DNA from: Candidatus Woesebacteria bacterium RIFCSPHIGHO2_01_FULL_38_10
GTDB taxonomy: Bacteria; Patescibacteriota; Microgenomatia; UBA8517
Assembly (NCBI GenBank): GCA_001792215.1
Contig: MGGC01000038.1
Coordinates: forward strand, 73,761-115,984
Reading direction: 5' to 3'
Length of the DNA stretch: 42,224 nt
Positions 34,915 to 42,224 of the stretch are shown piece after piece. Under the pieces are notes generated by a model. It was not told the origin of the DNA. It saw nothing but the letters and a program-made list of their open reading frames with translations, and searched no databases. The position numbers and the translations under genes were made by a program. Within the stretch, counting starts at the first letter, position 1; each line of letters opens with the position of its first letter.

Positions 34915-35990
34915 ATGAACGAAACTCCAGTAAGGACTCCAAAAGAAACCAAGTTTAAAGAGCCTCAAACTAAATTAAGTAAGATGTTTTGGACAGACGG
35001 GGAGGCACGGCTGGTAGGTAATTTTCTCAGGGGTAATCCAACTGAGATAGTCGAGGCGGAGGCAAAAAGACCCCTGTGGGAAGAAGTAAAATACCAACTG
35101 ATTTTGAAGACGAAGAAATTCCTGCTCTTCTTATCAGAGCTCAAGGATTTGTTAAGAACTTAAGCCCGAATCCGCTTCTTTCATTCCCACAAACTCCTTC
35201 TAAAGAAAATGTCCCGAAAACTGAATACACTTATTCTGTAAAAAAAAGATCGCAGGTTATCTTACAACTAGTTGAACCTCTATTTAGAAGATTCGGAATT
35301 TGGAGCACTGATGAATCAAGAAGAATTACTGCCTACGGAGGATTAAAGAAGCAAAGATAAGTCAAATTTTTTCCAGGCTGAATTGCTGGGCCAAGAAGTT
35401 GAGAGAGAAGGGCTTATTTCTCCTGAAGAAGGAGGGCCTTCTCTTATTGATGCAATTTACGCACCTAGATTCGAAAAAATTAAAGACCCATCTGATAAAA
35501 GAGTTAGAAGAAGTCTGGCTCATGAAATCGTTCATGCTCTTCGCGCCCTTTCCAATCGAAATTTCTGGAGAGATGTCCAAGACGAAGCCGAGCTTTTTGG
35601 TTTAAGAAAACCGGATTCTGATGAGAAGAAAAAACATATTGGAGGGTTTTACGTAGCCTCAAATATGCAAGGAGCTGAAGCGGTAGGAGAATTACTTGCA
35701 GCAGTGAGCGAACATAAGGCAGCCTATCAATCAGAACCTACTATAAAAATTTACTACCTGAATTATCTCAAAGACTACAAGTTACTATCGATAAATTTAA
35801 AAATGAGGAAAGACCCAAAAAAACTAGATATTTGACAGCCAAGCTTACCTTAGTTCATCATCTAGAACAGCTGAAAAATCTCGGATACGCTGATATTGAG
35901 GCGATTGATTTAGTTGCTTTAGGTTCCGGATACGTGAGCTTGGAAAAAGCACCAGAGCTTATTAAGCTTGGAGTTATCCAGCAGGAATAA
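34915..35990 (+). pseudogene. Frameshifted gene for a putative HExxH zinc metallopeptidase
   Basis: Four overlapping frames join into one protein; 'RRSLAHEIVHALRAL' motif; shifts near 35090, 35350 and 35745. Confidence 0.6.
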
Positions 35991-36042: not shown

Positions 36043-36939
36043 CTAGTGAGTCCGGCTTTCGTATAGAAGCTCAAAATATTTGATAATTTCCAAAGCAGCG
36101 TTTACTCCGGTAAACTCCTCTAATCCTCTGAACTGAGGACCTCTATTAATTTCAAGCACATAAGCTCGATGTGTTTTTTTATGAAGCATAATATCAACTC
36201 CGGCAATTTCTGTATGGTTTATTCTACTCAATTTCTCCGCTATTTCCCGTATATCAGAATTTTTATTTAAATCAAAAGACTCCCCCTTTGCACCCCGGCT
36301 GATATTACTCCTAAAATCTCCCTGAGAAGGAGTCCTTTTCATGGCTCCAATAGCTCGGTATCCAACCGTAAAAACTCTGATATCTCCGTCGTTGGGAATA
36401 AATTCGCGAATTTGGAAAGAAACAGAAGCCTTATCCTTAAGAATCACCCTTTTAATTTCCTTATAGGAATTAACTTTACTTACCCCGAGTCCTCTCTGAC
36501 CGTAACTGTTTTTTATAACAACCGGAAAATTAAAATCTTTTAAAGCCTCTCTTAAGGTCTTAATAGAAAGAACTATGCTCGTCTTGGGAAACCTTATTCC
36601 AAGTTCAATTTGTTTAATCAATTCAGAAGTCGGAGTAAAATAAACTTTATAGGCAGGATCAATCATCTTAAACTCAACTATCTTTGTTCCAAAGTTTTTA
36701 TGAAGATAGTCGCAGCTTATATACCACTCCCATTTCCTCTCGCCAACCGTAAGAAGATAGATAAGATTATACTTTTGCAAATCTAAACCCCCAACAGCGG
36801 GTTTAAAAAAATTTTTTGCGGTTCTAATTATGAGATCATAACTTGAACAATTATCAACAATATGTCCGCGTCTCCCCCCTTCTTCTTTTAACCTATTTGT
36901 CTGTCCGCTAGTTACCTTACCTACAATAAGAATTTTCAT
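36043..36939 (-). CDS. RimK-like ATP-grasp ligase (2)
   Basis: 'FPVVIKNSYGQRGLGVSKVNSYKE', 'QIREFIPNDGDIRVFTVGYRAIGAMKR', 'AGVDIMLHKKTHRAYVLEINRGPQFRGLE'. Confidence 0.88.
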   Translation of the reverse strand: MKILIVGKVTSGQTNRLKEEGGRRGHIVDNCSSYDLIIRTAKNFFKPAVGGLDLQKYNLIYLLTVGERKWEWYISCDYLHKNFGTKIVEFKMIDPAYKVYFTPTSELIKQIELGIRFPKTSIVLSIKTLREALKDFNFPVVIKNSYGQRGLGVSKVNSYKEIKRVILKDKASVSFQIREFIPNDGDIRVFTVGYRAIGAMKRTPSQGDFRSNISRGAKGESFDLNKNSDIREIAEKLSRINHTEIAGVDIMLHKKTHRAYVLEINRGPQFRGLEEFTGVNAALEIIKYFELLYESRTH

Positions 36940-37808
36940 ACTGCGTACTTCAAAGCATGCTCCAGATAAAGCCTGCCGATATTTTTGCCAGTTGCCTTCT
37001 CCATTCCCACAAACCCGGCCGTATGGTTAACCTCCAAAATATAACGCTTGCCACTCTCATCAATAAGAATATCAACTCCGCCAACACTCATATTAACCGC
37101 CCTCAATGCGTATTTTGCCAGCCTTTTCCCCTCCTCATCCAAATCATGCAGCTCAACCGATCCTCCTAAAGAAAAATTGGCTCTAAACTCCCCCTTCTTG
37201 GGGATACGGCGCATAATGAAAACGTTCTCTCCAATTATTAAACACCTTAAATCGTATTTATAAGGTATAAATTCCTGAATGATATAGCTTTTGGCCAATT
37301 TTCCCTGATCAACTAGCTGCCTTATCAGAACATCCAAACTATCTTTACTATCTACCCTAAAAACACTTGCACCTTTGCCCGACCTTACTGATTTAACAAC
37401 CACTGGGTAGCCTATCTTCTCAGCACTTTCTTGGTATTTTGAAAAGTCTCTTACATAGGCCGTATCCGGAACCAAAATCCCCTTAATTGATAACTTTATA
37501 AGATCAGTTACTTTATCAATTGAGTACCTATGTTCAAGAAAATTATTATCAAAAACCCGAACATCCTTACCTCGCAAATTATTAATCAAAACTGATATTG
37601 TTTTAATCGAATTAAAAATTCCCCGCATGATAATAACATCTGTTTGCAAATCAGAAAGTTGAGGAATAAAAAAACTGTCCTCCTTGAGAATGAAGCCGAA
37701 ATTCTTTAAATCAATGAGTTCAAAATCGTGCCCCAAAGCCTTAACTTCCTCTTCAATTCTTTTATTTTCGACCAAGGATAAAAGTGTTGTAATTAAGCTA
37801 ATCTTCAT
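36936..37808 (-). CDS. RimK-like ATP-grasp ligase (1)
   Basis: 'YPVVVKSVRSGKGASVFRV', 'QEFIPYKYDLRCLIIGENVFIMRRIPKKGEFRANFSLGG', 'GGVDILIDESGKRYILEVNHTAGF'. Confidence 0.88.
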   Translation of the reverse strand: MKISLITTLLSLVENKRIEEEVKALGHDFELIDLKNFGFILKEDSFFIPQLSDLQTDVIIMRGIFNSIKTISVLINNLRGKDVRVFDNNFLEHRYSIDKVTDLIKLSIKGILVPDTAYVRDFSKYQESAEKIGYPVVVKSVRSGKGASVFRVDSKDSLDVLIRQLVDQGKLAKSYIIQEFIPYKYDLRCLIIGENVFIMRRIPKKGEFRANFSLGGSVELHDLDEEGKRLAKYALRAVNMSVGGVDILIDESGKRYILEVNHTAGFVGMEKATGKNIGRLYLEHALKYAV

Positions 37809-37809
37809 A

Positions 37810-39135
37810 TCAGTTTGCTTTTTTTACAGCCTCCTCTTTTTCATCTTTTGTTATATCGGGATTGACTAAAAGTCCTTTTAAACTTTTTCTGCCAATAATT
37901 ACGGGAAACTTTAATGCAGTTCTTTTGGCAATTGATGCAGGAGTAGTAATTTTTCTTCCTGCCAACCAAAAGCTTAAATTAATTACCGGCCTTTTCTCCT
38001 TGCCAAATGAGCTTCTTACAGTCTTTGTCCAAAGAATATTATCATCTTTTAAAAGTCCAAGCTCACTGGCCAAACCTTCATTAATAGAAGTTCTCCAGGC
38101 ACCGGTATCAATTTTAGCAGTAACTTTTACCTTCTTTCCCCAGGCATTTACTATCTTTACTGTCTCAAACACCTTAACAGTTTTTATCCCCTCCTCAGCC
38201 TTAACCCTATCAGCAAATCTCTCTGCAAAAAGGGCTTTGGCAATTTTAACTCCGTGTTCACTATCCTTTACCGCCAAACCCATAACCCTGTCAAGCCTTC
38301 TTCTTAAACCAGCTTCATTGGCCAACTGAATTGACAATCCCGGCTGATAATTAAGTTCAAGTATCATCGGACCTTTTTCAGGATGAAGAACAACGTCAGC
38401 CCCAAAATAGCCTAAATTTGCGGCATTTCCGGCCTCAACCGCAATCTCCAACATCTCTGTCCAGTTGGGTATCTTTATACCATTTAACTTTCTTTTTGTT
38501 CCCGGTTTATAATAGATATACTCTGAGTGCCAAAAAGCTTGAGTGGTAATTCCGGTTGCAATATCAATTCCAACCGCAATTGCTCCTTGATGAAGATTAG
38601 CTCTGCCACCTGATTCTTTAGTAGGAAGTCTGAGCATGGCCATCACCGGAATTTTATTGAAAACAATGACCCTGATATCTGGAGTTCCCCGAAAGGCGTA
38701 TTTCTTAAAGGCTTTATGTCTTCCCACATACTCTTCAATATAAGCACTATCTGGCACATTGCCAACTGAAAATGCTCCCTCCAAAACATCCAAAACATGG
38801 ATTTTTAAATCCTCGATAGTAACCTTTTTCCGTTGAGTCGTTATCCAACCGCTACCGTCCTTGGTACGCTTCTTGACAACAATGATACCCTCACCTCCTA
38901 ATCCTTTTGAGGGTTTCAAAGCAAAGGAGTCAGGAAGTTTACCCCAATTAAAGTTTTTAATCTTTAAAGGTTTGCTAAATTTTGTATATATTGCGGGAAC
39001 TGGTATGCCAGCTTTTGACAAAACCTTTTTTGTTTTTATTTTTGAACTGGCGATGCTTCTTCCTCGGGCTTTATTAAAGGGATAGGAAAAAAGCTGCGTC
39101 CGGGCATTTAAACCTAAAATATCAGAAAACCGCAT
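37810..39135 (-). CDS. ATP-grasp (alpha-L-glutamate-ligase-related) fused to RimB-like retropepsin-fold protease
   Basis: N-terminal 'GLNARTQLFSYPFNKARGRSIASSKIKTKKVLSKAGIPVPAIY', 'ALKPSKGLGGEGI', 'MILELNYQPGLSIQLAN'; C-terminal 'VKVTAKIDTGAWRTSINEGLASELGL...FPVIIGRKSLKGLLVNPD'. Confidence 0.85.
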   Translation of the reverse strand: MRFSDILGLNARTQLFSYPFNKARGRSIASSKIKTKKVLSKAGIPVPAIYTKFSKPLKIKNFNWGKLPDSFALKPSKGLGGEGIIVVKKRTKDGSGWITTQRKKVTIEDLKIHVLDVLEGAFSVGNVPDSAYIEEYVGRHKAFKKYAFRGTPDIRVIVFNKIPVMAMLRLPTKESGGRANLHQGAIAVGIDIATGITTQAFWHSEYIYYKPGTKRKLNGIKIPNWTEMLEIAVEAGNAANLGYFGADVVLHPEKGPMILELNYQPGLSIQLANEAGLRRRLDRVMGLAVKDSEHGVKIAKALFAERFADRVKAEEGIKTVKVFETVKIVNAWGKKVKVTAKIDTGAWRTSINEGLASELGLLKDDNILWTKTVRSSFGKEKRPVINLSFWLAGRKITTPASIAKRTALKFPVIIGRKSLKGLLVNPDITKDEKEEAVKKAN

Positions 39136-39216
39136 AAATATAGGGCAAAATTCAAATTAGAACTAAAAACTTTCAGTTTTGATCTGTTTTGAGTTTTGCA
39201 TTTTGAGTTTTGCAGT

Positions 39217-40146
39217 TCAGCCCGAAATAAGTTTTCTGAATCTCCAAATTTCCATAAACCTTAAACCCACATACTTGCCTAACAAAAAGTCAAAAACAAA
39301 GATTGATAAAATCCAGACTTCAGGATTAAGAAGGGCAAATTCCTGAACACTCTTGGTTGCCAGCAAGACAAAAGAGGTAAGTGCCAAAATCAAAGTTTCT
39401 AAAGCTAAACTCATTGCAACTTTAACCGACTTTCCCAGTTGAACTTTACTAAAGTCCTCTGATAAAAGAACCAATACCAAAACCGGAAATATTGAGACAC
39501 TGCTTATATCAGGACTTTTTATATAAGGCGCTAAAAAAAGAAGAAATAAAATACTCAATACAACAAAATGAAGCATGAGAGCCATTCTGGGTAGGTACTG
39601 AAGTTTAATAATGGACAACCTTCGCAAAACCATACGAAAGAACGTTGAGACAAAAACAATGAGCAAAAATATGATTATTCCGACTATCGGTCCGGTTGCT
39701 ACAAAACTTACGGACAAGGCCGCCGGTAAAAAAATTCCAAAACCTCTTATTCCGATCAGATGTCTGGCTGCGGCAATCAAAGCAGCCACACCGGGAATAA
39801 GTAAAAGCAGAACTATTGTGTTAGGCGGAACGCCGGAGGCAACCGCTCCCCGAATTGCGTATTTTATGAGGTTGTAAGGCAGAACCGCACCTAATTTCTG
39901 TTCGTTGAGCAGCCTGGTCAGAGGTTCAACTGTCTCTTCTGTTTCACGGGTAATATCTGCCCGAGGAGCGGACGTTGGTTCAACTTTTTTTGCCTTTTCC
40001 AATATGGTGGAAGAAGCGGTTGCTTCTTCCTGTGAAATCTCTTCAGGCTCTTGAAGTGTATTTTTTTGAGCCAAGATTGGCAACACTTCAAAGAAAAAAA
40101 GAAAAAAGAAAAAAAAAGTTGTTGACAAAAAAATAATTTTCTTCAT
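39217..40146 (-). CDS. 7TM protein similar to the membrane region of 7TM-transglutaminase proteins
   Basis: Signal peptide; 'GVPPNTIVLLLLIPGVAALIAAARHLIGIRGFGIFLPAALSVSFVATG' plus further TM helices. Confidence 0.75.
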   Translation of the reverse strand: MKKIIFLSTTFFFFFLFFFEVLPILAQKNTLQEPEEISQEEATASSTILEKAKKVEPTSAPRADITRETEETVEPLTRLLNEQKLGAVLPYNLIKYAIRGAVASGVPPNTIVLLLLIPGVAALIAAARHLIGIRGFGIFLPAALSVSFVATGPIVGIIIFLLIVFVSTFFRMVLRRLSIIKLQYLPRMALMLHFVVLSILFLLFLAPYIKSPDISSVSIFPVLVLVLLSEDFSKVQLGKSVKVAMSLALETLILALTSFVLLATKSVQEFALLNPEVWILSIFVFDFLLGKYVGLRFMEIWRFRKLISG

Positions 40147-40486: not shown

Positions 40487-42224
40487 CTACGGTGCCAGTT
40501 CCCTAAAGCGAGCGTGTCTTTCCCCTAAGCTGGCAGGAAAGTTCATAAGAAGATCAGGCGCAAACTTAAAGGTTTCTGCCGGAGTTATGGCGTTATTGGG
40601 AAGATCCCTGTCCATAACCAAAGTTCCCTGGCTAACCACTGATCCGCGCAGCAAAAGCGTCAAATCAGATCCTTGTACATCGGTGGTCAGAAAGTCTCTT
40701 TGGGCAAAATATAACCCTTCCATTTCAGTTACACTCTCATCAACGGTTATATTCCCGTCGGTAATCAAAAGCAGTAAACCCGTCCCATCAGTCAGATTAA
40801 TATTTTTATCGATTTTAACACTACCTCCTTGAACAAAGACAACTACTTTTCTTGAGCCGATATTCAAAGAAGCGTCTCCATCAGTCAAAGTTAAATCAGA
40901 GGGATTAGAATATTGATAGTAGTAATAGCCGCTTCCGGAAGGATATTCTGTTCCTCCGGATAATAAATTACTTTCAGTAACTGTCGGGCCAAGGCTAGCC
41001 AAACTTACACTGGTAGGAATTTTATCCCGGAAAAATTGATAGGTGTATGTATCCCCTCCGTAATCAGATCCTTCCACCACCCATCCCGGCCGAGAAGGTC
41101 CGTTTCCTGCTCCCCAGGAAACGTTTCCTCCTCTTCCAGCTGAGGGAATTCCGGCTGCCTCTTCAGGGGTGCCGGATGTATTTTTAACAAGATATGGATC
41201 ACAGGGTGGCGAATTCAGAGGGCAGCCTCCGGCAATTTGGGAAATTACATCGCCTCCGGATAATACATCCCCGTTTTCCACCTGGAACCAGGGCGGAGGA
41301 TTAATTACGCTAACCTGAGACGAATCATCACATATCGGACGACCTTCCATTACCATACTTGCATTAATAGTAGCATCCGGAGGACTTACTCCCTCGCCGT
41401 AAACATCCGTTCGGTAAGGCGAACTCCCATCGCTTCCCGGATTAACACTGGCAATTGATGTATTGCTTGAGGAAAAGTTAACTCTGTCAATGGCAATATT
41501 TGTAGGTTTATCAATATTGGTTGCCCAAAGCTGGTCAGTGGTCATTAGTTCAATTACCGTGTTTGCCGGCAATAAGTTAAAGGTACACCAGGCGCAACTA
41601 TTCCAAAGGCCACCAGTATAACCCCAATTTGAGGTTGTACAAACTCCTCTGGTTCTGACCCGACCATAATAAGTTCTGTTGGAAGTTAAGCCCCAGGTGG
41701 TGTAATTACACATTCCATCACTACACTGAAAAAAGGCTGAACTTTGCCACCAGGAATTATATACATAAGGAGCTGAGAAACTGGGTTCATTATCCACCTG
41801 TAACTGATACTCGGAAACAAATCGCCCACCGTCAGCATCCCAAACCCTGGGCCATTGCCAATTTATCCACCAATTACCGGTTTCCCTATTACAACCCCAA
41901 TCAGGCGGATCTCGGGGGCGAGGCTGGCTGCAGATTCCAGGAGTCGGAGTGGCTGTGGGGGGTACCGCTGTTGGCCGAGGCGTGTTGGTGGGTGCACCCG
42001 GAGTATTGGTTGGTCCTCCGGGAGTATTAGTCGGAGGTGGTGGTGCAGTAATTGTCAAGATAGAACTATCCGAACAAACAGCCACCTCAGAGATACCTGA
42101 ATTCATTATCACTTGAGCCGAGACAGTTGTAGTTCCTCCCGCTAAATGAGTTGCTGTCGTCGTATAAGGAACACTACTTTTACTACTGGAAGTAAGCGTG
42201 GCCACAGAAATATTTGATGAGTTA
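40487..42224 (-). CDS. Large surface protein with TNTPG stalk (partial; frame stays open at the window edge)
   Basis: 'TNTPGGPTNTPGAPTNTPRPTAVPPTATPTPG', aromatic/Cys-rich domain, C-terminal beta-rich 'GGSVKIDKNINLTDGTGLLLLITDGNITVDESV'. Confidence 0.75.
   Translation of the reverse strand, partial: NSSNISVATLTSSSKSSVPYTTTATHLAGGTTTVSAQVIMNSGISEVAVCSDSSILTITAPPPPTNTPGGPTNTPGAPTNTPRPTAVPPTATPTPGICSQPRPRDPPDWGCNRETGNWWINWQWPRVWDADGGRFVSEYQLQVDNEPSFSAPYVYNSWWQSSAFFQCSDGMCNYTTWGLTSNRTYYGRVRTRGVCTTSNWGYTGGLWNSCAWCTFNLLPANTVIELMTTDQLWATNIDKPTNIAIDRVNFSSSNTSIASVNPGSDGSSPYRTDVYGEGVSPPDATINASMVMEGRPICDDSSQVSVINPPPWFQVENGDVLSGGDVISQIAGGCPLNSPPCDPYLVKNTSGTPEEAAGIPSAGRGGNVSWGAGNGPSRPGWVVEGSDYGGDTYTYQFFRDKIPTSVSLASLGPTVTESNLLSGGTEYPSGSGYYYYQYSNPSDLTLTDGDASLNIGSRKVVVFVQGGSVKIDKNINLTDGTGLLLLITDGNITVDESVTEMEGLYFAQRDFLTTDVQGSDLTLLLRGSVVSQGTLVMDRDLPNNAITPAETFKFAPDLLMNFPASLGERHARFRELAP

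Follow-up and report, generated by a model that had tools for sequence, protein, structure and literature searches.

The subject of this analysis is a four-gene cassette on the minus strand of a 42,224-nucleotide stretch (the window) of contig MGGC01000038.1 from Candidatus Woesebacteria bacterium RIFCSPHIGHO2_01_FULL_38_10, a member of the Patescibacteriota. The cassette occupies positions 36043-40146 of the window and is transcribed in the order 7TM protein, fusion protein, RimK-2, RimK-1. The first gene (39217..40146) encodes a 309-residue seven-transmembrane (7TM) protein that matches PF14402 (E=2e-22) and the RloB model NF052267. The second (37810..39135) encodes a 441-residue protein in which an ATP-grasp ligase resembling RloC/TIGR02291 is fused to a retropepsin-like protease resembling RloA and RimB. 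Two ligases of the RimK type follow. RimK-2 (36936..37808, 290 residues, PF08443 E=1e-28) exceeds the TIGR00768 cut-off with 146 bits, and the divergent RimK-1 (36043..36939, 298 residues, PF08443 E=1e-30) falls under it with 124 bits. An earlier note on this DNA had recognized the four open reading frames, and all are present where it placed them. The 4-nt overlap that it described for the RimK genes is also there, but the fusion gene ends 1 nt, not 2 nt, before RimK-2; the 7TM and fusion genes are 81 nt apart. The families it named (PF14402, PF14397 with PF05618, and PF08443 twice) were all matched in the expected proteins. The cassette is conserved over many genomes, so it is neither a product of chance nor an artefact of frameshifts, and the arrangement is genuine.

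The fusion protein joins two domains. An AlphaFold model built from 32 homologues has a mean predicted local distance difference test score (pLDDT) of 87.9. The ATP-grasp domain, residues 16-284 (38284..39090), matches PF14397 with E=1e-65 and TIGR02291 with E=3e-79, and a fold search with the model found RimK (5zct) as its closest relative in the PDB. Its residues K74, D247, E260 and N262 do not vary in any of the 129-130 homologues that extend over these sites. ATP-grasp ligases of this RimK-related kind carry out amino-acid addition chemistry. The second domain, residues 317-429 (37849..38187), matches PF05618 above its cut-off (E=1e-7) and NCBIfam RloA3 (E=2e-7), and by sequence it resembles the solved RloA structure 9g59 (E=3e-5). 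The RimB family model NF052261 reached only E=0.029, with 14 bits against a cut-off of 200. The C-terminal half of the model superimposes on a phage acid protease over 123 columns (root-mean-square deviation 2.9 A, TM-score 0.74 on the target, E=1e-8) and also matches several retroviral proteases. The catalytic residue is Asp343 (codon 38107..38109) in a DTGA motif: DTG or DSG stands at this site in 116 of 132 homologues, and the remainder have Asn, are otherwise broken or do not cover it. The two proposals of the earlier note about this gene, that ligase and protease are in one polypeptide and that the protease has a retropepsin fold with its catalytic Asp, are therefore both supported. The protein lacks a signal peptide and any strong hydrophobic segment, and its protease domain is free of cysteine, so the protease must be located in the cytosol together with the ligase. 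In the retropepsin family the active site assembles only in a dimer, and the fusion is therefore expected to dimerise.

Variants of the fusion occur in single loci. At L126 (3218-7417) the fusion has 854 residues, with an extra, unassigned C-terminal region of about 380 residues past the retropepsin, and a 541-residue RimK with a long, likewise unassigned tail is encoded downstream of it. The reading frame of the fusion is interrupted in L020 and L071 and that of a RimK gene in L010, by assembly error or decay.

The 7TM protein was modelled with a pLDDT of 76.9 and aligned with its homologues, 27 proteins in all. It has an N-terminal signal or transmembrane helix, about 80 residues outside the membrane and then seven helices, and the linker between the first helix and the membrane helices is poorly ordered in the model. 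The predicted topology would place this linker outside and the basic segments (RMVLRRLS.., GLRFMEIWRFRKL) inside. Residues Q236, R296, E299 and R302, which are among the charged and polar residues invariant in the family, would then lie on the inner side. The RloB model NF052267 has 508 positions and matches only over the last 200 or so (312-506, E=8e-17), that is, over the 7TM part, which agrees with the earlier note that a transglutaminase domain is absent. Beyond the family of this genome the 7TM proteins vary in length between about 210 and 550 residues, and the long ones among those examined have a PKD domain, not a transglutaminase, before the 7TM part. A fold search of the model against the PDB returned no similar solved structure.

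The 7TM gene and the fusion gene form the core of the system. A search for the fusion was positive in 67 of 96 related genomes, including most members of the family, and gave 538 candidate stretches in GTDB genomes; the best 80 of these include Woese-, Blackburn-, Moran-, Kaiser-, Shapiro-, Levy-, Kerfeld-, Falkow-, Dojka- and Peregrinibacteria. The 7TM gene lies immediately upstream on the same strand in all 120 testable distinct loci, with a median gap of 5 nt. A strict script counted it in 111 out of 122 distinct loci. Nine of the 11 that it missed do have the 7TM gene, which is overlapped there by the start of the longest fusion reading frame, and in the other two the fusion lies at a contig edge. 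The co-occurrence in relatives expected by the earlier note is thus strong for this pair. The RimK genes behave differently, with one or more within 4 kb downstream of the fusion in 74 of 115 loci and at least two in 34. They vary from zero to three copies per locus and belong to several subfamilies, and about a third of the loci have none. Genomes close to this one have either a RimK-2 orthologue (51-60% identity) or a RimK of another subfamily (25-35%). Because the RimK genes vary while the 7TM-fusion pair is invariant, they are best regarded as accessory, and the earlier proposal that three ligases jointly build a short tag is not upheld.

In 20 wide neighbourhoods no conserved third partner accompanies the cassette, and besides RimK and the MATCAP family discussed below nothing partner-like recurs across lineages; the genes seen include a tRNA thiolation enzyme, TPR, VanW, NYN and AbiEii proteins. 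An AbiEii-type nucleotidyltransferase, from a type IV toxin-antitoxin family, adjoins the cassette in L050 (4444-5241) and L052 (4896-5690). In the window, a 572-residue threonine- and proline-rich surface-type protein with no Pfam or NCBIfam match is encoded upstream of the cassette (40487-42205, minus strand), and relatives of it likewise lie upstream of the cassette in some genomes (loci L011, L016 and L046). Converging on the cassette from the other side (35076-35960, plus strand) is what resembles a frameshifted or decaying metallopeptidase gene, in the form of two neighbouring frames of which one has a zincin-like HEIVHAL motif. The same genome also encodes, unlinked to the cassette, a further RimK-like ATP-grasp protein of 401 residues (G000:C32:18221-18895, L165).

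The closest experimentally studied relative is the rloABC operon of Pseudomonas. It was overlooked by the earlier note, and the system is therefore less isolated than that note held. In P. aeruginosa the operon encodes a secreted retropepsin, a 7TM protein with an inactive transglutaminase domain and a cytosolic ATP-grasp protein (PMC12239564). Loss of all rloA proteases in Pseudomonas leads to hypo-osmotic sensitivity and lysis, and the loss of rloB or rloC rescues this defect (PMC12239564), as is expected if RloB and RloC make what RloA removes. RloA cuts runs of at least eight glutamates and requires D48; the R114A and R137A mutants showed the strongest effects on activity and did not complement in vivo (PMC12239564). 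The cassette likewise encodes together an ATP-grasp of the RloC type, a retropepsin of the RloA type that has the DTG motif and the residues contacting polyglutamate, and a 7TM region of the RloB type. In a profile alignment to RloA 9g59, ERPVI is paired with KRPVI and TDRS with AKRT, so that K46, D48, R114 and R137, which RloA needs to cleave polyglutamate, correspond to K341, D343, R382 and R405 of the fusion. The spacing of 23 between R114 and R137 is retained between R382 and R405, and K341 stands two residues before the Asp. Among homologues with DTG or DSG, the K341 position is Lys or Arg in 111 of 112, R382 is kept in 110 and R405 in 109. Since the contact residues of RloA are conserved, it is likely that the substrate is of the same class.

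The two systems differ in several respects. The Patescibacterial protease is fused to the cytosolic ligase, whereas that of Pseudomonas is separate and secreted, with a signal peptide and a disulphide. The Patescibacterial 7TM protein lacks the inactive transglutaminase and has a short linker here and a PKD domain in other members. RimK genes are added in Patescibacteria, and in relatives of the source genome a MATCAP protein can apparently stand in for the protease. The TIGR02291, RloA3 and RloB matches are all below the NCBI curated cut-offs, and the cassette should therefore be called a relative of Rlo and not an annotated member.

Genes of the MATCAP family (PF08014; QEGLA, TIGR02421, at NCBI) adjoin the fusion in several lineages. 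Animal MATCAP/TMCP enzymes strip C-terminal residues and glutamates from tubulin (PMC10499314), in direct parallel to a write/erase cycle with an ATP-grasp as the writer. In loci with MATCAP the retropepsin motif is often NTG and not DTG (NTG in at least six); the same change in RloA, D48N, served as the catalytically inactive control (PMC12239564). When catalytic and contact residues are both counted, the protease site is eroded in 15 genomes with MATCAP and in one without, and intact in eight with and 42 without; MATCAP presence was scored by whole-genome search, except for L084, L100, L112 and L138, which were scored by adjacency at the locus. A stricter coding by the motif alone gave a Fisher p of 5.6e-8 for the association of erosion with MATCAP. 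In the sole eroded genome without MATCAP (L124), R405 is the one altered position, and the reading frame of the fusion is interrupted. The eroded fusion L131 was left out of the counts, because its contig is 1.3 kb long and belongs to a bin that carries the name Verrucomicrobiota. When 66 ligase domains were placed in a tree, those with an eroded protease site fell in three separated lineages: the Peregrinibacteria, a group of L036, L080 and L140, and L146. Peregrinibacteria have ATP-grasp, degenerate retropepsin and MATCAP in one chain, with PF08014 at E=1e-48 to 1e-59 and the HExxTH and QEGLA motifs. This triple fusion of about 780-800 residues lies beside a PKD-7TM protein in L135, L142, L147 and L148, which are Peregrinibacteria and one relative. 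In the source genome the retropepsin is intact, and a whole-genome search gave no PF08014 match. The genomes with both an intact site and MATCAP resemble an intermediate stage, as would fit a course in which redundancy came first and decay later, and in some lineages the retropepsin has apparently been replaced by MATCAP-type carboxypeptidases. The coincidence of site erosion with a MATCAP in the genome, at times adjacent or even fused, supports a write-and-trim cycle in which the trimmers are interchangeable. The trimming proposed by the earlier note is strengthened by this apparent replacement and by the conserved polyglutamate-contact residues.

The explanation that we favour, and hold to be somewhat more probable than its negation, is that the Patescibacterial Rlo form is a membrane-associated machine that writes and trims peptide chains of an acidic type, probably of glutamate. 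Its ATP-grasp half would add residues in the cytosol by acyl-phosphate chemistry; that the added residue is glutamate is suggested by the protease half. The fused retropepsin, as a dimer, would cut chains beyond a minimum length, and since it is proposed to cut only past that minimum, chain length could be set within one polypeptide. The 7TM protein is the invariant partner and may be an anchor, a sensor or an exporter; its cytosolic face and its C-terminal helix, which has the motif GLRxxEYxRFRKL, are conserved, and the fusion may dock or deliver its product there. The accessory RimK ligases would add or cap further residues, and in several lineages a MATCAP/QEGLA carboxypeptidase would take over the trimming while the retropepsin decays. 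The pairing of RimK and RimB is a precedent, as it too combines an ATP-grasp ligase with a cytosolic retropepsin acting on polyglutamate. It differs in that the Patescibacterial ligase is of another family, is fused to its protease and has a membrane partner. RimB both trims the products of RimK and stimulates their synthesis (PMC11957791), and a covalent ligase-protease pair is therefore sensible.

Several observations weigh against this explanation. The TIGR02291 score of the ligase, 266 bits, is under the NCBIfam equivalog cut-off of 314. The protease is periplasmic in Pseudomonas and necessarily cytosolic here, and the product may therefore differ. The association with MATCAP is phylogenetically clumped, and independent pairs (two in the expected direction, none in the opposite) are too few for significance. 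Ribosomal protein S6 is a known RimK target, but in the source genome it is a 96-residue protein that ends in GGDL and has no acidic tail, which makes it a less likely RimK target there.

The last point bears also on a different proposal, that the ligases extend the C-terminus of a fixed membrane or ribosomal protein and that the protease or carboxypeptidase resets the tail. This has precedents in RimK and RimB acting on S6 (PMC11957791) and in the tubulin ligases and MATCAP (PMC10499314), and the RimK genes share the operon. A fixed target is nevertheless doubtful, given the tail of S6 and the lack of a conserved third partner in the 20 wide neighbourhoods. It could also be that the ligase makes free poly-alpha-glutamate, which the 7TM protein exports in the manner of PgsBCA, with the ATP-grasp replacing PgsB and the protease clearing chains that are not exported. 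The hypo-osmotic lysis of rloA mutants and its rescue by loss of rloB or rloC would fit the build-up of a periplasmic polymer. PgsBCA/CapBCA is a possible functional parallel, as it combines a ligase with a multi-span membrane protein, although PgsB is of the Mur-ligase type and the ligase here is an ATP-grasp. When their profiles are aligned (hhalign), the 7TM protein and PgsC are collinear along the whole length of PgsC, but the match is not significant (probability 0.6%, P=0.047) and indicative only, the PgsC profile having been made from an approximate B. subtilis PgsC sequence and two CapC repeats from locus L054. None of the 27 7TM proteins matched PF14102 (CapC) in Pfam even at E=10, nor does any solved structure resemble the model of the 7TM protein; its kinship with PgsC/CapC, suggested by eye, is tentative at most. 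Export of a free polymer is accordingly considered unlikely, even though the chemistry exists in the group. At L054 (167-2490, genome G100) a PgsB-like Mur ligase is followed by a 353-residue protein with two tandem CapC repeats, probably a polyglutamate synthase. Such a pair was found in one of 146 searched relatives of that genome, a PDB search with the tandem CapC protein gave no relative, and a search for more CapC sequences among Patescibacteria and plasmids had no success.

Why is the retropepsin fold retained where the active site is dead, as in the NTG forms beside MATCAP? One answer is that this half is mainly regulatory or structural, with proteolysis secondary, and stimulates the ligase as RimB does RimK. 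However, 42 of the 43 genomes without MATCAP keep every catalytic and contact residue, so that cleavage appears to be under selection there, and a mainly regulatory role is quite improbable. It is scarcely more probable that the ATP-grasp joins a substrate other than an amino acid, such as an envelope or sugar-linked precursor. The Pfam name of PF14397, 'sugar-transfer associated ATP-grasp', and the envelope phenotypes of rlo mutants point in that direction; against this, the ligase is closer to TIGR02291, a family of RimK-related ligases, and no glycosyltransferase recurs among the annotated neighbouring genes.

Both the domain families and the fact that they occur together in Proteobacteria were already known. 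In the searched literature, which did not include the 2009 amidoligase survey of Iyer and Aravind (cited in PMC12096838) that may mention part of this, no account was found of the ligase-protease fusion, its spread in Patescibacteria, the cytosolic relocation of the protease, the PKD or short-linker 7TM forms, the substitution by MATCAP or the triple fusion.

The rlo operon in Pseudomonas influences osmotic tolerance, biofilms and antibiotic sensitivity. In the Patescibacterial form, ligase and protease are identified as direct partners by being a single protein, the residues that bind polyglutamate are retained, and a second trimmer apparently replaces the first. Cells with genomes of about 1 Mb are thereby given a conserved function, and the editing of peptide chains in bacteria is linked to the family of enzymes by which tubulin tails are edited. 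A wider reading, offered tentatively, is that Patescibacteria share one uniform chain-editing system, with ligase and trimmer in one protein, a membrane channel or receptor, and retropepsin and MATCAP interchangeable on the same product. If this is true, the eukaryotic MATCAP enzymes that act on tubulin tails would share with these bacterial ones a single kind of ATP-grasp write and erase cycle.

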